Shown here: positions 8,701 to 46,336 of the stretch, piece by piece
How the letters are laid out: each line of letters opens with the position of its first letter
How positions within the stretch are numbered: position 1 is the first letter of the stretch
Origin: Cytophagales bacterium
GTDB lineage: Bacteria > Bacteroidota > Bacteroidia > Cytophagales > Spirosomataceae
Reading direction: 5' to 3'
Assembly: GCA_013298025.1 (NCBI GenBank)
Contig: JAAFJE010000001.1
Location: 62,001 to 126,000 of the forward strand
Length of the DNA stretch: 64,000 nt
Made by a program: the position numbers and the translations under genes
The notes under the pieces: model-generated
Told to the model about the DNA's origin: nothing
What the model saw: only the letters and a program-made list of their open reading frames with translations
The model's database searches: none

Positions 8701-9481
8701 TTGTGGGGAAATTATGCGTTTCAGCTTTTACCGAAATCACAGAATCAAATTCTTTTTCTGCATAAAAATCTGGTTTGTCGGCAGATTTTGGAGCGAATTG
8801 CGTAATTCTTGGACCTTTAATAAAAGCAACGTTATCTTTATAAGCAGAAACGATGTCGTTTGGATTCGTTTCAGAAGTTTTCTTGATAAGTTTGAAAAGT
8901 GAAGTAGGTTTGGCTACCCCGTCGATGACGAAAGTACCATTGAAGATTTTATGGCGACAGTGTTCTGAGTTTACTTGAGAGAAACCAAATACTTCTGAAT
9001 CAGTGAGTTTTCTACCTAATGTTTCAGCCAAGCCATTCAAATAGCCAACTTCTTCTTCGCTCAAGGCAAGCCCTTGTTCTTTGTTGTAAGCTGCTACATC
9101 CTCAATTTCAAGAATCGGTTCAGGTTGAATTTTGATGGTAAAAATACCTTGATGCAATTGGGCATATTTCTGCGAAAGCATCGGGTCGAAATCCGTAAAA
9201 TCCTCCGCAACCGCCTTAAATTCCTCGATACGAATAATTCCATGAACTCCCATGTTTTGGGTAATTTCAACAGCATTGGTACTCCAGGGCGTAATCATGG
9301 CAGCACGAGGGCCCACAAAAACAGCTTCCAAAGTAGCATTTTCTTGATTTACGACAGTAAAAGTATGGCCAATATTGCTATTGAAAAGCCAAAAGAGTTT
9401 TTGAATATCTTCATCTGAAAGAATGCCAAGCGTTTGCACGGCATAAACTGTGCTGGAGTTACTCCCGAAGAAATGAATCAT
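5792..9481 (-). CDS. purL: Phosphoribosylformylglycinamidine synthase, large single-chain form
   Basis: A 1229-residue enzyme of de novo purine synthesis, converting FGAR, glutamine and ATP to FGAM. The size and order match the fused gamma-proteobacterial/eukaryotic type: N-terminal PurS-like region (about 1-140), linker, two AIRS-like synthetase halves (for example SVKAETHNFPTTVEPFNGAA and SIHDHGAGGHLNCLSELVEE, then TGKDSLSMKQK and GSGGLITTLLEMCFA) and a C-terminal class I glutamine amidotransferase with GICNGCQLF (nucleophile Cys near 1074) and the closing catalytic-type PHIER region. No frameshift or lost motif was seen. It starts with ATG at 9481 (MIHFFGSN) and stands alone, convergent with the Abi-like gene. 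Confidence 0.96.
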   Translation of the reverse strand: MIHFFGSNSSTVYAVQTLGILSDEDIQKLFWLFNSNIGHTFTVVNQENATLEAVFVGPRAAMITPWSTNAVEITQNMGVHGIIRIEEFKAVAEDFTDFDPMLSQKYAQLHQGIFTIKIQPEPILEIEDVAAYNKEQGLALSEEEVGYLNGLAETLGRKLTDSEVFGFSQVNSEHCRHKIFNGTFVIDGVAKPTSLFKLIKKTSETNPNDIVSAYKDNVAFIKGPRITQFAPKSADKPDFYAEKEFDSVISVKAETHNFPTTVEPFNGAATGSGGEIRDRLAGGQGSLPLAGTAVYMTSYSRLEENRPWEKAVNERDWLYQTPMDILIKASNGASDFGNKFGQPLITGSVLTFEHEEEARKLGFDKVIMLAGGIGYGKESQAKKQKPTVGDKVVVLGGENYRIGMGGAAVSSADTGAFGSGIELNAIQRSNPEMQKRAANAIRGLVESDHNPIVSIHDHGAGGHLNCLSELVEETGGLIDLDKLPVGDPTLSAKEIIGNESQERMGLVIGEQDLATLQRVAERERSPIYTVGDITGNNRFTFQSKSTGAKPMDFAISEMFGSSPKMIMEDKTVVRNYAGLSYTETEIPTYLAQVLQLEAVACKDWLTNKVDRCVGGRVAKQQCAGPLQLPLNNVGVMALDFKGKDGIATSIGHSPVAAIVDPAAGSRTAIAEALSNIVFAPLKDGLKSVSLSANWMWACKNAGEDARLYEAVQACSDFAIELGINIPTGKDSLSMKQKYPNDEVIAPGTVIISAGAHCSDINKVVEPVLQRNGGAIYYLNLSKDSFKLGGSSFAQILNKVGNEVPTIQDAAYFKTAFDTFQDLIKAGKIEAGHDIGSGGLITTLLEMCFADVNLGANIDLSGLGENDTVKALFNENIALVFQADASVETVFAENNITIVKIGEVVEGNTLSVKNKATSFDFAVAELRDVWFKTSFLLDSKQSKNGTALARYSNYKNQPLSYTFPSHFTGKLTDNSTLAVRPKAAIIREKGSNSEREMANAMYLAGFDVKDVHMTDLIAGRETLEDIQFIGAVGGFSNSDVLGSAKGWAGAFLYNEKANAAIKKFFAREDTLSVGICNGCQLFMELELINPDHEVHGKMHHNESHKHESIFTSVTIQQNNSVMLSTLAGTTLGVWVSHGEGKFVLPYEEEKYSIVGKYGYEAYPANPNGSDFNTAMMCDATGRHLVTMPHIERSTFPWNWANYPSNRKNDEVSPWLEAFVNARLWIEEKNK

Positions 9482-9835
9482 GATGAAACAGATTGATGGT
9501 TGTTTGTCGGCTATTTTAATAAAAACAAAGACAAGCGTACAGCCGAATTGCTAAAGAATTGCAAATTTAGCGGTTTTGAAAAAGAATACCTATAAAAATT
9601 TAAGGGATTGGACGCTTCGGCTCTTATTGGCATTTTTCACGACATTGCCAAGACTTACCAAATTTTTGTCAACTCGACCAAATTCGATGAAATGTTTGTT
9701 TGACTAACGCAAATGTCCTATTTTTAACCTTGATATACCATGACTTTGTGGGTGTTTTTTATGGGTATTTATCAATAAAAGCAGCACCCTGCATTTTACA
9801 GCACATACACTATTTTATTTGTACAGTTATACCTA
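9482..9835. other. Divergent intergenic region between purL and the propeller sensor gene
   Basis: 354 bases without a convincing gene. It holds the putative purL promoter near 9562 and must also hold the promoter of the rightward sensor kinase gene, for which no exact TAnnTTTG element was found (nearest is TGACTTTG at 9741-9748, one mismatch). Confidence 0.5.
9562..9569 (-). promoter_or_regulatory. Putative -7 promoter element for purL
   Basis: CAAATTTA on the plus strand reads TAAATTTG on the minus strand, an exact TAnnTTTG Bacteroidota -7 element, about 80 bases before the purL start. I see no TTG at the -33 spacing, so this rests on the -7 element alone. Confidence 0.45.
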
Positions 9836-11215
9836 ATGATGATGAAAAAAATATTTGTTTTAACCTACTTCTATGTTGCCTCTTTCTTTGCTTCTTTGGC
9901 ACAGGAATATCCTGTGAAAGTATTTACTACCAACGACGGGCTTTCTCAAATGCAAGTAAATTGCGTGTTTAAAGACAGCCGTGGGTACATCTGGGCTGGT
10001 ACAAAATACGGCTTTTGTAAATACAATGGGGAAAAGTTTACCCGATATAAGCCCATCATCGGTGTTTTAGGGACTGAGATTTACAAAATTGCAGAAGATA
10101 ATAAGGGAGTATTATACATTGCTTCCAATGAAGGCGCGTGTCGGTTTGACGGTAATTCCTTTGAACCCATCAAAGGAATAAAAGATGTTGGCGGTCAATT
10201 TTGTATTGACAATAAAAATCAAGTGTATGTCCTAAAGTATAATGTTCTTTATAAAATCAATAGCAATGATAGCCTTGAAGTAGCCAAACACCTGCCATTC
10301 AAGCATCAGTATGGCAGTATCATTTTTGATAAGTTTCATAACACTTTAATAGCCCATGTAGATAGCATCGGGGTTGTGTCTTTTACTGAATATTCATACA
10401 AAATTTTATTTGCAGAGCCTAAAAAGGGAGGAAATATAACTACGCAGTTAGGAAAAAATGGAGAAATTATTATCTATCATAACTATCAAAATGAGCAAAC
10501 CTACTACATCCTTGATAACAAGGGAAAAGTAGAAGCATTTTTAGAGATTAAAGACACTCTTATTCAAGTAAGAAAAACTATACCATTTAATTTTCCTTTT
10601 TCAGTAAAAAATGTTGCCTATTTGCTTGAAACCAATTCATTTATTTGTAAAAAGTTACAGAATATACCCTCTTTTATCAATGCAATACAACCTTGCTATA
10701 CCGAAAACGGTGTATGGATTGGAACAGAACAAGGTTTGATTTTTATTGCTACCAATGGTTTTGAATATTTCAACAAAAAAATTGCACCTTACTGTTGGGG
10801 CTTAGTAGAGGATAAATATCAACGCCACTGGCTATTCAATTGGCTTCATCCGATTAAGATTTGGGATGGAAAAAAAATAGATAGTACAACAGCGTATTAT
10901 CCAATAATGAACAAGAAAATACACTTACGTAAGGAAGATAAAATAGATGATAAAAATAAAAACACATGGTATTTTGGTCCTATCAAAGATAAATGGGGAA
11001 ACCTTTGGATACCCAATGGACATGGGCTATTGAGGTATGATTATCGACAATATCAACTATTTACACCTACTAAAAAAGATATTGCCACAATCAGTTTATC
11101 AGTGTTAGAAGACCCCGAACGCAACCTTATTCTAAGTGGTGGTCAGCTTTCCTTAAACATTTTTGAAAATAAATATCCCTTTAAATGCACTACGGGTGTA
11201 GGACAAGTTTGTTAA
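9836..11215 (+). CDS. Propeller-type LytS sensor histidine kinase, 5' fragment (interrupted by a MITE-like element)
   Basis: The first 459 codons of what was a single sensor gene. There is a signal peptide (KKIFVLTYFYVASFFASLAQ), then Reg_prop-type beta-propeller blades, for example DGLSQMQVNCVFKDSRGYIW and GTKYGFCKYNG, the periplasmic ligand-binding part of Bacteroidota sensors. The true coding sequence stops after base 11193; the last 7 residues (GVGQVC and the residue before) are coded by the inserted element, which supplies the TAA. Removing the 191-bp element plus one 9-bp target copy joins this frame exactly to the downstream fragment, giving a 1022-residue protein. The fragment alone would be an exported propeller without any output domain. 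Confidence 0.85.
   Translation: MMMKKIFVLTYFYVASFFASLAQEYPVKVFTTNDGLSQMQVNCVFKDSRGYIWAGTKYGFCKYNGEKFTRYKPIIGVLGTEIYKIAEDNKGVLYIASNEGACRFDGNSFEPIKGIKDVGGQFCIDNKNQVYVLKYNVLYKINSNDSLEVAKHLPFKHQYGSIIFDKFHNTLIAHVDSIGVVSFTEYSYKILFAEPKKGGNITTQLGKNGEIIIYHNYQNEQTYYILDNKGKVEAFLEIKDTLIQVRKTIPFNFPFSVKNVAYLLETNSFICKKLQNIPSFINAIQPCYTENGVWIGTEQGLIFIATNGFEYFNKKIAPYCWGLVEDKYQRHWLFNWLHPIKIWDGKKIDSTTAYYPIMNKKIHLRKEDKIDDKNKNTWYFGPIKDKWGNLWIPNGHGLLRYDYRQYQLFTPTKKDIATISLSVLEDPERNLILSGGQLSLNIFENKYPFKCTTGVGQVC
11185..11193. repeat. Left 9-bp target-site duplication
   Basis: ATGCACTAC here is repeated exactly at 11385-11393 on the other side of the inserted element. Confidence 0.9.
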
Positions 11216-11384
11216 AAAGTAAAGTTTATTCATATATTCTTTGGCAAAGCAGAAAGAATCTGTTTTGCCAAAGGCTAATTTTATGAAATATTTCAAAAAT
11301 TAAGGCTTTTTCTCATACTTAAATTTAGCTATGCCAAATAAAATTTGGAGCTTTTTTTTAAACAAACAAACTTGTCCTACACCC
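11194..11384. mobile_element. 191-bp MITE-like element with 20-bp terminal inverted repeats
   Basis: The ends are GGGTGTAGGACAAGTTTGTT (11194-11213) and its exact reverse complement (11365-11384). The element is flanked by a 9-bp duplication of the target and carries no gene. Inside is a strong hairpin, CTTTGGCAAAGCAGA (11239-11253) against TCTGTTTTGCCAAAG (11259-11273), 14 of 15 pairs, which may act as a transcription stop. Size, ends and target duplication make it a non-autonomous transposon; a 9-bp duplication fits IS4- or IS5-like parents but the family was not identified. No parent transposase with these ends is in the window. Confidence 0.9.
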
Positions 11385-11393
11385 ATGCACTAC
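11385..11393. repeat. Right 9-bp target-site duplication
   Basis: Second copy of ATGCACTAC; see the copy at 11185-11193. Confidence 0.9.
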
Positions 11394-11412
11394 ACTGACG
11401 AAGAAAGAAGGG

Positions 11413-13104
11413 ATGAAGATTAGTAATTATATTCTAAGTATAGCTTTAGAAAGACCTGGAGTTTATTGGTTAGGTGGAGGAAATATGCTGATGAGGTACG
11501 ATAGCGACCATAAGACTTGGAAAGAGTTTTCGATTGCAAATGGGAAAACGAAATCTAAAGGTTTTGGAGATATGTGTTTTGATAACCGCCATACACTTTG
11601 GGTTACAAGTCTTTTAAATGGGCTACATTACTACGATGCCCGATTAGATTCCTTAGTCCAAGTGCCTTCTGAAGAGCTAAATGAACCCGCCTCAAGTGTT
11701 CTACAAATCAGTCAAAATCAATTACTGATAGGTTCTTTGAGGCAGCTATACATACTAGATTTACAAGCTTGGTATAAAAATAAAAAAATCGTATTAAAAG
11801 CTTTTAACAACAGAAATGGCTATCAAGGCATAGAACCCGGACAAAAAGGTTTATACAAAGATTCTAAAGGATATATTTGGGTTACATCTGGTACAGAACT
11901 TTCAAGATTTAAGCTTGATAGATTAGTCCTCAAAAATGATACACTCAAAACCTTTATTACACAATTCAATGGGAAACCGATTCCATTCAATGGAATATTA
12001 CAAGATAATATTTCTACAACTGGTAATGTCAGAATTGAATTTGAGTCGGTCGGAGAAAACAAATCATTGGATTCGGAATATAGTTACTTTATCGAAGGAA
12101 TTACCCCAACTTGGACGAATTGGCAAGAAGAACCCGTAGTTACGCTTTCTAAGTTAGCATCAGGTGATTATCGACTCTTAGTAAAATCAAGAACCGGGAA
12201 TGGAGACGACCGATATTCTAAAATAACTTCGTTTGATTTTGTTGTAGAAGTATTCTTTTGGCAGTCACCATATTTTCCACTCTATGCCTTTTTGATACTT
12301 TTAGCGATTTTAGCTTTAGGGTATTTCATTTATTGGAAAATTCAACAAAAAGAAATAGCCATCAAAGAGGCACTTATCCAAAAAGAAAAAGAGGCACAGC
12401 AAGAACTGATTAACAAAGAAGTAACCCTCAAAAAACAGACGACGCAAATCAAGTCTTTACAAGTACAAACCGCTCAGGCTCAAATGAATCCACATTTTAC
12501 CTTCAACGTGTTGGGTACATTACAAGCACTGATTTACAAACAAGACACCAAAAGTGCCAATGATAATTTATTAAAATTGAGCAAACTCATGCGGAGTTAT
12601 TTAGATGCCTCCATTTCTTCCGAAATCGACCCCCACTCGCAGGAATCTGGCATGATTACTTTGGAAGAAGAAATAGAATTACTACAAATGTATATTGATT
12701 TTGAGCAACTGACCTATCGAGATAGATTTGAAGCATTGATTAACATAAGTCCAGACATCAGTAAAGATTTCTACAAGATTCCCCCCTTGTTGATTCAGCC
12801 TTTTGTAGAAAATGCCATCAAGCACGGCGTATTACCCAACCGTAAAGTATTTGGTAAAGTTGACATTGCGTTTAGCCTAGACGAACAAGAAAATTTAGTT
12901 TGTATCATCAGTGACAACGGCATTGGCAGAGAAGCCTCACAGCTTTTACAACAAACCTCCATGAAAACCTACAAATCGCTCGGTACAGCCTTAGTGAAAA
13001 AACGGGTAAATATACTAAGCGAATTAGGATTTAAAATTGACATCCATTACCAAGACAACCCAACAGGGGGCACAACCGTAACCATCAAATTTATTTATAC
13101 CTAA
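11413..13104 (+). CDS. Propeller-type LytS sensor histidine kinase, 3' fragment
   Basis: A 563-codon open frame from an internal ATG; the native frame enters from base 11394. It holds the remaining propeller blades (KGFGDMCFDNRHTLWVTSLL, GLYKDSKGYIWVTSG), a Y_Y_Y beta-sandwich domain (SEYSYFIEG...ASGDYRLLVKS), one membrane helix (FPLYAFLILLAILALGYFIYW), a coiled coil, and the LytS-type kinase with phosphoacceptor AQMNPHFTFN, PPLLIQPFVENAIKHG and SDNGIG. LytS kinases phosphorylate LytTR regulators, and one follows 4 bases later. If translated alone this piece lacks a signal peptide and half its sensor; whether it still works is unknown. The kinase motifs are intact, so the insertion may be recent. 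Confidence 0.85.
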   Translation: MKISNYILSIALERPGVYWLGGGNMLMRYDSDHKTWKEFSIANGKTKSKGFGDMCFDNRHTLWVTSLLNGLHYYDARLDSLVQVPSEELNEPASSVLQISQNQLLIGSLRQLYILDLQAWYKNKKIVLKAFNNRNGYQGIEPGQKGLYKDSKGYIWVTSGTELSRFKLDRLVLKNDTLKTFITQFNGKPIPFNGILQDNISTTGNVRIEFESVGENKSLDSEYSYFIEGITPTWTNWQEEPVVTLSKLASGDYRLLVKSRTGNGDDRYSKITSFDFVVEVFFWQSPYFPLYAFLILLAILALGYFIYWKIQQKEIAIKEALIQKEKEAQQELINKEVTLKKQTTQIKSLQVQTAQAQMNPHFTFNVLGTLQALIYKQDTKSANDNLLKLSKLMRSYLDASISSEIDPHSQESGMITLEEEIELLQMYIDFEQLTYRDRFEALINISPDISKDFYKIPPLLIQPFVENAIKHGVLPNRKVFGKVDIAFSLDEQENLVCIISDNGIGREASQLLQQTSMKTYKSLGTALVKKRVNILSELGFKIDIHYQDNPTGGTTVTIKFIYT

Positions 13105-13108
13105 TCTT

Positions 13109-13903
13109 ATGACAAACACACTTAGAACAATAATCATCGACGATGTTCCAGATTTTTTAGAGTTAATGGCAGATTTACTCACAGAACATTGTCCAGAAAC
13201 AACCATCGTAGGCACAGCTACCGACATCGACACTGCCTATCATTTAATCAAGCAAGAAAAGCCCGATTTGTTGATTTTAGACATCGAATTGGGAGGCGTT
13301 ACTTGTTTCAATCTTTTGGGGCAACTACGCAGTGAAAATCTCATAGATTTTCAACTCATTTTCTTTACCAGTTACACAACAAACGAACATTATACCAATG
13401 CTTTTCGGTACTCAGCCCTGCAATATTTGCATAAACCCATCGACCATGAGCTATTAAAAGAATCGGTGGCAAGAGCCTATAAAAATGTAACCTGTAGTAA
13501 AAAAGAAGTAAGCGAGCAACTACAGCCACAACTTGAAGTGCTTTACAAAATGATACAAGAAAAAAAAGGCTCAAAAGAAGGGCAAATTTTCTTGCAATTA
13601 CCCCGAAAAATATGGGAAAAAGTAGAAGTACAGGACATCCTCTATTTAAAATCTGATGAAAACATTACCGAGTTTCATCTCATTGGCAACCGTCCTGTAA
13701 AAACCATGCAACATATAGGTTATTATGTTTTTTTGACCAAAGACTATGAATTTTTTAGAATAGAACAAGGCTGTATCGTCAACTTAAAACACGTAGTAAG
13801 ATACGAAAGCCAAGACAGAGTTATACGGTTGTCAAACGGCAAACACCTTTATGCCTCAAGGCAAAAAGACCGAGAGTTACGAAGAATCTTTATGCAGCAG
13901 TAA
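13109..13903 (+). CDS. LytTR-family response regulator
   Basis: 264 residues: a receiver domain (about 5-125) with the acidic pair DD at 11-12, phosphoacceptor Asp58 in LLILDIELGG, switch Thr/Ser region FFTSY and the Lys of YLHKPID, then a LytTR DNA-binding domain (about 155-262) with KVEVQDILYLKSDENIT, RIEQGCIVNLKHVVRYE and a final RQKDRELRRIF. LytTR domains bind direct repeats upstream of target promoters. The start lies 4 bases after the kinase stop, so the two are co-transcribed and form a cognate pair; the kinase partner is split by a mobile element, which could leave this regulator without its signal. Confidence 0.93.
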   Translation: MTNTLRTIIIDDVPDFLELMADLLTEHCPETTIVGTATDIDTAYHLIKQEKPDLLILDIELGGVTCFNLLGQLRSENLIDFQLIFFTSYTTNEHYTNAFRYSALQYLHKPIDHELLKESVARAYKNVTCSKKEVSEQLQPQLEVLYKMIQEKKGSKEGQIFLQLPRKIWEKVEVQDILYLKSDENITEFHLIGNRPVKTMQHIGYYVFLTKDYEFFRIEQGCIVNLKHVVRYESQDRVIRLSNGKHLYASRQKDRELRRIFMQQ

Positions 13904-13904
13904 G

Positions 13905-13950
13905 AAAAACCCCTTTGAAATCATACGTTCAAAGGGGTTTTTCTTTTTTA
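13905..13950 (+). terminator. Intrinsic terminator of the sensor/regulator operon
   Basis: Perfect 15-bp stem, AAAAACCCCTTTGAA at 13905-13919 and its complement at 13928-13942, followed by CTTTTTT. Confidence 0.92.
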
Positions 13951-14064
13951 GAACCAAATCCTATGTTATTTGACCGAATTTTAGGAAGGCAAGCTTTTAT
14001 GACAGGTAGTTTAGTAGTTTTAGTTTTAAAAAATACAGAATCAAATTATTAAAAACATGCAGCT

Positions 14065-15492
14065 ATGAAAACACTATTACCATTCTTTAACTGTACAAAA
14101 AGTACACTATCGCTACTTTTATACTTAATTAGTTATATTTCAATTGGACAGTCAAAAAACTATACAGTTCCATTTAAAGCACAAGTTCTTCCAGGTGATT
14201 GGGAAAATACTAAAAATTGTGGTCCTACTTGTGTATTAATGATTGACGGATACTATAAAAAATATGTCCCAACTGAAAAAAACATTAAGTCTATTAACGA
14301 TTGGATGGGAACACCAACTTATAATGGTGTAGTCACTAATACAACAAAATTAGAGGAGTTAGCTACAAAATACTGTAAACTATCAAATGTTTCTCATGAT
14401 AACGCATCCTCCTCAAATGCAAAAAATACGATAGTAGATGAGCTTAATCAAGGATACCCGCTCATTTGTGCTGTTAGATTAAAAATGACTAATTTGGTTG
14501 ATAAATCAAATGGTCACTTTATGGTAATCAGAGGATATAATTCTGAAGGAGTTTATGTAAATGATCCAGGACGAAGCCTTGAATCAGGACAAGGTGAAAA
14601 TAAATACTATCTGTGGGAAACATTTTTAAAATCTTGGGAAACACAAAACTATGCTTTTGTAAAAATTCATCACATAACTACACCAGCACCCTCAATCCCA
14701 ACACTCTCGACACCAGCCCAAAATGCCAATAATGTTTCTATCAAAAATGGGATTTCCTTTAAATGGTCGTCTACAAATGCTGATAAATATCGTATTCAAA
14801 TTATTGAAGCAAGTAAATTTGTGTCGTTCTCAACTTCAACTGGTTTTATTAATGCTACTTGCACAAATTGTCCTTACTCTGACACCACAAGTGCGTCTTC
14901 ATTTTTATGGACAAAAGCAGAATCTGGAAAAACTTATTATTGGACAGTTAGAGCAAGTGGCATTGGTGGCGTGAGTAACTTCTCCAATTACAGTAAATTT
15001 ACAACCGAAACTCTTACCGCAAGCCCTCCAACCCTCACAGGAACAGCTACTATTTGTAAAGGAGCAAGCACAACCTTGACTGCCACAGGCTGTAACGGAA
15101 TAGTGAATTGGAGTGATAATCAAACTGGAACAACTGTTAGTGTCAAACCATCTGCAACAACTACTTATACGGCAACCTGTACTGTTAATGGAGTAAAATC
15201 AGCTAATTCAAATGCTGTAACTGTAACTGTTAATCCTGTACCAACTGCTCCTACCTTGACAGCATCGCTCAGTACGATAAGTGCTGGAAAATCAACAATA
15301 CTAACAGCATCAAATTGCAATGGTATAGTTACTTGGGATAGCCCTTTGGGAACGGGGACATCTAAAACTGTTACCCCTAATGTAACAACAACTTATAAAG
15401 CCACTTGTTCTACAAACAACTGTATGAGTATAGCATCCACTATAACAATTACTGTTAATAACCCTCCAACAATTACAGGAACAGCTATCTAA
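14065..15492 (+). CDS. Secreted C39-like peptidase with Ig-like repeats, 5' part of a frameshifted gene
   Basis: 475 codons. A signal peptide (about 1-29) precedes a papain-like C39 domain: VPFKAQ, NCGPTCVLMIDGYY with Cys52 as likely nucleophile, NGHFMVIRGY with the His, and VNDPG with the Asp. A fibronectin-III-like segment follows (about 212-315), then the first 146-residue unit of paired Ig-like modules (ATICKGASTTLTATGCNG..., LTASLSTISAGKS...). The frame is lost at about 15487, inside a truncated repeat copy, and stops at 15492. The 3' part (15551-16744) carries the rest of the repeats and the T9SS sorting signal. The whole gene would be a cell-surface or secreted peptidase/adhesin; its target is unknown. 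Confidence 0.85.
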   Translation: MKTLLPFFNCTKSTLSLLLYLISYISIGQSKNYTVPFKAQVLPGDWENTKNCGPTCVLMIDGYYKKYVPTEKNIKSINDWMGTPTYNGVVTNTTKLEELATKYCKLSNVSHDNASSSNAKNTIVDELNQGYPLICAVRLKMTNLVDKSNGHFMVIRGYNSEGVYVNDPGRSLESGQGENKYYLWETFLKSWETQNYAFVKIHHITTPAPSIPTLSTPAQNANNVSIKNGISFKWSSTNADKYRIQIIEASKFVSFSTSTGFINATCTNCPYSDTTSASSFLWTKAESGKTYYWTVRASGIGGVSNFSNYSKFTTETLTASPPTLTGTATICKGASTTLTATGCNGIVNWSDNQTGTTVSVKPSATTTYTATCTVNGVKSANSNAVTVTVNPVPTAPTLTASLSTISAGKSTILTASNCNGIVTWDSPLGTGTSKTVTPNVTTTYKATCSTNNCMSIASTITITVNNPPTITGTAI

Positions 15493-16465
15493 AACTGTTA
15501 CCCCTAATGTAACAACAACTTATAAAGCCACTTGTTCTACAAACAACTGTATGAGTATAGCATCCACTATAACAATTACTGTTAATAACCCTCCAACAAT
15601 TACAGGAACAGCTACTATTTGTAAAGGAGCAAGCACAACCTTGACTGCCACAGGCTGTAACGGAATAGTGAATTGGATTGATAATCAAACAGGAACAACT
15701 GTTAGTGTCAAACCATCTGCAACAACTACTTATACGGCAACCTGTACTGTTAATGGAGTAAAATCAGCTAATTCAAATGCTGTAACTGTAACTGTTAACC
15801 CTGTACCAACTGCTCCTACCTTGACAGCATCGCTCAGTACGATAAGTGCTGGAAAATCAACAATACTAACAGCATCAAATTGCAATGGTATAGTTACTTG
15901 GGATAGCCCTTTGGGAACTGGGTCTTCTAAAACTGTTACCCCTAATGTAACAACAACTTATAAAGCCACTTGTTCTACAAACAACTGTATGAGTATAGCA
16001 TCCACTATAACAATTACTGTTAATAACCCTCCAACAATTACAGGAACAGCTACTATTTGTAAAGGAGCAAGCACAACCTTGACTGCCACAGGCTGTAACG
16101 GAATAGTGAATTGGATTGATAATCAAACAGGAACAACTGTTAGTGTCAAACCATCTGCAACAACTACTTATACGGCAACCTGTACTGTTAATGGAGTAAA
16201 ATCAGCTAATTCAAATGCTGTAACTGTAACTGTTAACCCTGTACCAACTGCTCCTACCTTGACAGCATCGCTCAGTACGATAAGTGCTGGAAAATCAACA
16301 ATACTAACAGCATCAAATTGCAATGGTATAGTTACTTGGGATAGCCCTTTGGGAACTGGGTCTTCTAAAACTGTTACCCCTAATGTAACAACAACTTATA
16401 AAGCCACTTGTTCTACAAACAACTGTATGAGTATAGCATCCACTATAACAATTACTGTTAATAAC
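15040..16465 (+). repeat. 438-bp tandem coding repeats with one truncated copy
   Basis: Counting from the motif GGAACAGCT, full units begin at 15040, 15605 and 16043 and a broken unit of only 127 bp lies at 15478-15604; the last unit ends near 16465. A full unit is 438 bp (146 codons, two Ig-like modules). The broken copy lacks 311 bp, which is not a multiple of three, and so shifts the frame. The 15605 and 16043 copies look identical to each other, while the 15040 copy differs at a few sites (for example GATAATCAAACTGG against GATAATCAAACAGG), pointing to recent duplication or gene conversion, or to an assembly error in near-identical repeats. Confidence 0.92.
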
Positions 16466-16744
16466 ACAAAGTCTCGAATTTCGATTGACACATTGATTAC
16501 TGATAGTGCAGACTCTACTTTACTCGAACCAAGCGTTCAGCGAATATTCCCTAATCCCGTTTTCACTGGAGATGAAGTGAATTTTGATAAACCGATTAGC
16601 TTTACCCTTTTAGACCAATATAACAATATAATAGCGATTCAGCAAGAAAAGGTTTCTAAATGGAATATTAAAAATCTGCGTAATGGTTTCTATATTATTC
16701 GTACAGATGATGGAAGTAGTTATAAACTATTTATAAATAGATAA
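15551..16744 (+). CDS. Ig-like repeats plus T9SS C-terminal sorting domain, 3' part of the C39 gene
   Basis: 397 codons from an internal ATG; the native frame is open from about 15488. It codes two and a third copies of the 146-residue Ig-like unit and ends in a type A type IX secretion sorting domain of about 75 residues: SVQRIFPNPV, then the short beta strands FTLLDQYNNIIAIQ, LRNGFYIIRTDDG and the final SYKLFINR. Such domains direct export through the outer membrane and surface attachment in Bacteroidota. As it lacks a signal peptide, the fragment by itself cannot be exported, so it is meaningful only as the end of the gene starting at 14065. Confidence 0.85.
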   Translation: MSIASTITITVNNPPTITGTATICKGASTTLTATGCNGIVNWIDNQTGTTVSVKPSATTTYTATCTVNGVKSANSNAVTVTVNPVPTAPTLTASLSTISAGKSTILTASNCNGIVTWDSPLGTGSSKTVTPNVTTTYKATCSTNNCMSIASTITITVNNPPTITGTATICKGASTTLTATGCNGIVNWIDNQTGTTVSVKPSATTTYTATCTVNGVKSANSNAVTVTVNPVPTAPTLTASLSTISAGKSTILTASNCNGIVTWDSPLGTGSSKTVTPNVTTTYKATCSTNNCMSIASTITITVNNTKSRISIDTLITDSADSTLLEPSVQRIFPNPVFTGDEVNFDKPISFTLLDQYNNIIAIQQEKVSKWNIKNLRNGFYIIRTDDGSSYKLFINR

Positions 16745-46081: not shown

Positions 46082-46151
46082 GGGGTCGCCTAGACGGGGT
46101 CGCCTAGACGGGGTCGCCTAGACGGGGTCGCCTAGACGGGGTCGCCCAGAC
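46082..46151. repeat. 14-bp minisatellite, five copies
   Basis: GGGGTCGCCTAGAC is repeated exactly four times (46082-46137), then once with one change, CCCAGAC (46138-46151), followed by a shortened GGGGAGAC (46152-46159). The array is much richer in G and C than its surroundings. It has no open-frame or CRISPR character: there are no unique spacers. Confidence 0.95.
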
Positions 46152-46336
46152 GGGGAGACGGGGTAATGATAAAGTTTTGATAATTGGTGCGTCATTTCGC
46201 ACGTGTTGTTGGTGCTTTTCAGCAACAACGGCGGGGCGTGTTACATTCAGGTTGACCATTCTGCAAAGAAAATTTACCATTCTCAAAAAAAAATAGCCAT
46301 TCTTCCTAAGTATCGTTAATTTGTGTAAAAGTGAAA

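Follow-up and report, generated by a model that had tools for sequence, protein, structure and literature searches.

At positions 9836 to 13104 of the window, by which we mean the whole stretch of 64,000 nucleotides that was analyzed (C1:62001-126000 of the source genome, an assembly of 5.44 Mb in 53 contigs that is 99.97% complete), a sensor kinase gene is read as two frames with a short element at their boundary. The locus raises the question of how the gene came to be divided and what has become of the sensor and of the regulator encoded behind it.

Interruption of the sensor gene

The element covers 191 bp of the forward strand (11194-11384) and was classified as a MITE because it is short and noncoding, has inverted ends and target duplications, occurs in identical copies and folds strongly. 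The terminal inverted repeats of 20 bp, at 11194-11213 on the forward strand and 11365-11384 on the reverse strand, were defined by the pairing of their arms, which are complementary at 20 of 20 positions. The 9-bp sequence ATGCACTAC can be read on both sides, as the left (11185-11193) and the right (11385-11393) copy of a target duplication. These features agree with the sequence-only reading of this DNA, which had described an element of this length with perfect inverted ends and a 9-bp duplication. A frame scan of the element found no long open frame. The insertion of the MITE inside one sensor gene is thus genuine and clearly documented, and it is of an ordinary, well-known type.

The 5' part of the gene (9836-11215, forward strand) is a frame of 459 aa that was assigned from its Reg_prop propeller blades (Pfam, E 4.2e-9) and from the frames of homologues. 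Its start appeared signal-peptide-like when judged by eye; its stop lies inside the MITE and its final residues are encoded by the element. The 3' part (11413-13104, forward strand) is a frame of 563 aa that comprises the rest of the propeller, a Y_Y_Y domain, a membrane segment recognized by eye, and the kinase domains (Pfam His_kinase, E 2e-18; HATPase_c, E 4.3e-7; Y_Y_Y, E 4.6e-7; Reg_prop, E 2.9e-5), and no signal peptide was visible at its start. Propeller, Y_Y_Y, His_kinase and HATPase_c are all present, but across two frames and not in one. The proposal that removal of the element together with one target copy restores a single gene was borne out by the coordinates. The ancestral 5' coding stretch (9836-11193) is open and consists of 452 codons plus two bases, the ancestral 3' stretch is open from 11386 to 13101, and by coordinate arithmetic the gene with one target copy has 1023 codons including the stop, which corresponds to 1022 residues. 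The solved Reg_prop/Y_Y_Y sensor regions 4a2l and 3v9f, both matched here, have propeller blades and a Y_Y_Y domain in common with this protein. They are named hybrid sensor/response regulators, whereas the present kinase is of the LytS type (PF06580), has a separate LytTR regulator and is broken by a MITE.

The cognate LytTR response regulator (13109-13903, forward strand) had been called intact, and its frame indeed matched both Response_reg (Pfam, E 4.4e-18) and LytTR (E 3.4e-12). It starts 4 bases 3' of the kinase frame and the two genes probably form one operon, so that the insertion could lower the expression of the regulator. Within the source genome, the best other match to the kinase part among the 35 of 43 candidates that were scored was a 389-aa frame with an E-value of only 8.6e-18, and thus no paralogue close enough to replace the sensor was seen.

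Homologues of the sensor and its regulator

The kinase was searched for in 222 genomes of the family, the source genome included, with at most six candidates scored per genome and a threshold of E 1e-75. This threshold was reached in 22 genomes; apart from the source genome these are 21, with 23 homologous places at 34-52% identity. At 20 of these places a single open frame, at least 1002 residues long, matched both halves of the sensor (in G046, which is among the 20, the 5' match was limited to residues 3-110). Two places are cut by contig ends. At the first, G159, a frame of 694 residues remains open through the insertion site, with matches on either side of the junction; at the second, G089, the frame starts at the contig edge, with no 5' match. 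The last place, in G006, is read as two frames of 480 and 548 aa because the frame shifts by one base within seven consecutive G, at about 3108-3135 of L016 (G006:C2) and only a few codons from the MITE position. Either an error in sequencing or a separate mutation may account for this shift.

The uninterrupted gene that had been expected in relatives was therefore seen at the 20 complete places and, across the site, in G159. The same split, as two conserved proteins, was looked for in the relatives and was not seen; the nearest case is G006, which carries a different lesion. At the level of sequence comparison, the ancestral single frame is confirmed by these independent homologues, none of which comes from a sister strain. 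Across the junction, the alignment with the G014 homologue has no gap (KCTTLTKKEGM / RSRSLTPKEGM), and by eye the homologues of G132 and G116 also align without one, while more distant homologues have small gaps nearby.

A match to the regulator adjoins all 23 homologues, two of them being aligned in part only. When gene order was compared, the kinase and the regulator alone matched window positions 1-34000 in G014, G004 and G132, and G006 had one further weak match, to the C39/Ig_7 frame of the window (96 residues, E 7e-9). The case for orthology thus depends on sequence and on the pairing of kinase and regulator.

Copies of the element in the source genome

The 20-bp MITE end, with up to two mismatches allowed, occurred nine times in the source genome and a reversed-pattern control did not occur at all. 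Six of the occurrences are the ends of three full MITEs and three lie near contig ends, so other copies of the ends do exist, as the earlier reading had led us to look for. The three 191-bp copies are 100% identical. The copy at C51:139644-139834 has the same orientation as the one in the sensor gene on C1, and the copy at C18:60626-60816 (L084:8627-8817) has the opposite one. Each has its own target duplication: ATGCACTAC on C1 (9 bp), CATGAAAAC on C51 (9 bp) and GTTTGCAT on C18 (8 bp). Compared with its own reverse complement the MITE is 67% identical, so that as a whole it forms an imperfect palindrome, and it folds far more stably than shuffled sequences (z -9.5 as DNA and z -9.1 as RNA). 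No Rfam family was matched at gathering scores in window positions 9000-14500.

Two of the three copies lie inside genes. The C18 copy breaks a frame of 283 residues near codon 18, and the frame becomes continuous when the flanks are joined. A search for homologues of the interrupted protein in 29 genomes gave a match in three, the source genome included, and the homologues in G001 and G003, which are of the same genus, cross the junction without a gap. The protein has a weak LuxR-type (GerE) match (E 0.056, below the Pfam cut-off), and we tentatively regard the gene as a regulator. The C51 copy lies between frames, with no frame of at least 60 residues across its empty site.

The insertion had also been suggested to be recent. 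The three identical copies of this short element are suggestive of recent movement, but identity gives no date. The element is mobile and probably recently active.

In the main text of a review of prokaryotic MITEs (PMC10969869), elements are described that this one resembles in its length of 191 bp, the lack of a long frame, perfect inverted ends, a target duplication, identical dispersed copies and a strong fold. It is unlike the MITEs reviewed there in its ISKra4-like ends, in having three copies and in being seen in one genome. ISKra4 is not mentioned in that main text, which does refer to gene disruption by a different MITE, Chunjie-1. A search of one open library returned no paper that joined MITE, sensor histidine kinase, insertion and Bacteroidetes, nor one that joined Runella and MITE.

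A probable parent insertion sequence

The three remaining occurrences of the MITE end belong to IS ends near contig ends (C18:61137, C29:34629 and C9:151999), where larger elements break the assembly and are visible only as parts. These IS ends are of two kinds, and have the outer 19 (C18 and C29) or 17 (C9) bases of the terminal repeat in common with the MITE. The C29 end is 99% identical to the C18 end. Further inward, the MITE and the C18 and C9 ends matched over no more than 10 bases. On the reverse strand, the C18 and C29 ends lead into a frame of which the final 51 codons are present. In NCBIfam, this 51-aa fragment matched the C-terminal end of the ISKra4 transposase (E 1.4e-11; a score of 44 bits, the curated cut-off being 205), and more weakly ISLre2 (E 6.8e-4) and ISH6 (E 3.1e-3). 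The 34-aa fragment at the C9 end matched no NCBIfam family, and neither fragment had an accepted Pfam match. In all 53 contigs of the source assembly no complete IS or full transposase gene was found, only the fragments at contig ends. The search for a parent transposase that had been suggested for this element thus returned a candidate parent in fragments. Since the C9 and C29 ends are flanked by the same 9-bp target TAGTCCATA in opposite orientation, they probably represent both borders of a single IS insertion; C18 would belong to another, giving two insertions in all. At the end of contig C18 (C18:60626-61312) only 320 bases separate a MITE copy from an IS end.

Because the outer 17-19 bases are common to both and the 51-aa fragment matches an ISKra4 transposase, an ISKra4-family IS is the probable driver of the MITE. 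The p-MULT group, which includes ISKra4 (p-MULT 4), is characterized in PMC3942029 by ends of 18-39 bp that have C as the terminal base and by target duplications of 8 or 9 bp. The MITE fits this wider group in end length, in its terminal C and in the size of its duplications. In the same account, several ISKra4-group elements are reported to insert upstream of promoters, which may count against the assignment, two of the three MITE copies being inside genes. Unlike an ISKra4 IS, the MITE has no transposase, whereas the IS of the source genome carries the C-terminal transposase fragment, and the interior of the MITE is unrelated to the visible IS parts.

The element outside the source genome

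Among 200 family genomes, with at most four candidates scored per genome, full copies of the MITE were found in the source genome only. Partial matches of ~24-42 bases, mostly to interior stretches, were present in 14 other family genomes (again with at most four candidates scored in each), and two of these matches, both in G089, are ends of elements close to contig edges. The exact 20-base end, with C or T as the last base, matched five contigs in a genome-contig collection from which the source genome was possibly left out. Four of these contigs are from Runella sp. C8_MAG_00014, where the adjoining sequence resembles the transposase end (translated for L033), and one is from Rudanella sp. 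CAN_BIN22, where the match is too near the contig edge to be interpreted. The four Runella loci (L032, L033, L034 and L036) show a related IS at contig edges, whose ends and transposase C-terminus are nearly the same. Viral contigs gave no match to the MITE, and a partial match in a plasmid (E 0.01) was taken as chance.

Consequences for the sensor and the regulator

The insertion itself, its copies, their duplications, the common ends and the ancestral frame are each directly documented. On this basis we regard it as very probable that a MITE with ISKra4-type ends was moved in trans by the IS transposase into the propeller region of the LytS-type sensor gene, duplicating 9 bp of target and ending the frame. 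The MITE would be a non-autonomous element that has the ends of an ISKra4-family IS and depends on the transposase of that IS. With the element in place the frame ends after 459 codons, and the product of the first half, judging from its signal-peptide-like start, would be an exported but incomplete propeller. Translation of the second half, if it begins at the ATG at 11413, would give a kinase with neither a signal peptide nor a complete sensor. The LytTR regulator would lose its input, and might be transcribed less by polarity. The sensor gene is most likely a recent pseudogene, with a regulator that would be uncoupled from its signal, as the sequence-only reading had suggested, or subject to polarity. 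The locus illustrates cleanly how a MITE with ISKra4-like ends has broken the sensor gene of a two-component system, and an identical second copy interrupts another gene of the genome; identical copies suggest recent movement and the common ends point to a parent IS. The case opens no new question.

The MITE could also start or stop transcription and thereby make expression of the kinase fragment and the regulator either constitutive or almost nil. This effect is compatible with the disruption described above, and we consider it unlikely. Two weak sigma-70-like sites (9/12) begin inside the element, at 11209 and 11265, but promoter-like sites in window positions 9700-14100 number 13 against 16.3 in shuffles. 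The Bacteroidota -7 promoter motif is TAnnTTTG, and it is absent from both strands of 11151-11420. An internal hairpin of 16 pairs with a 5-base loop (11238-11274, forward strand) was found by folding and is strong when read in the transcribed direction. It would fit a lower expression of the regulator, but its terminator-like label is weak, as the region 9700-14100 has three such sites against 2.5 in shuffles.

We give little credence to a functional two-piece sensor, in which the exported propeller half and the membrane kinase half reassemble and the split falls in a permissive loop. The kinase part does retain its domains, and among homologues the residues around the insertion are, by eye, more variable than those on either side. 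The halves of the G006 homologue, moreover, meet close to the same point, but its shift in a G run has the possible explanations given above, and 20 of the 23 homologous places have one frame. The missing signal peptide at the start of the 3' frame also argues against reassembly, as do the three identical MITE copies, which would leave little time for a new function to arise. G006 nevertheless leaves a small chance that the loop tolerates breaks. A broader proposal, slightly less probable again, is that this sensor family tolerates a break in the loop where the MITE inserted, the gene being broken within a few codons of it in two genera and the halves still working as a sensor of two polypeptides; if true, the insertion would alter the architecture of the sensor instead of destroying it. 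It is scarcely credible that the MITE results from faulty assembly or is a repeat by chance, since three places have clean and different target duplications and the reversed control pattern gave no match, even though the assembly breaks at related IS.

Other features of the window

The neighboring gene (14065-16744), which encodes a C39 peptidase with Ig_7 repeats, is also read as two frames, of 475 and 397 aa. A perfect tandem duplication of 127 bp (15360-15614), not a multiple of three, shifts its frame and adjoins perfect repeats of 438 bp. This frame split is either a real change or an error in the assembly of repeats. At 46082-46155 the window contains a tandem array of the 14-bp unit GGGGTCGCCTAGAC, with 5.3 copies and 98% matches.
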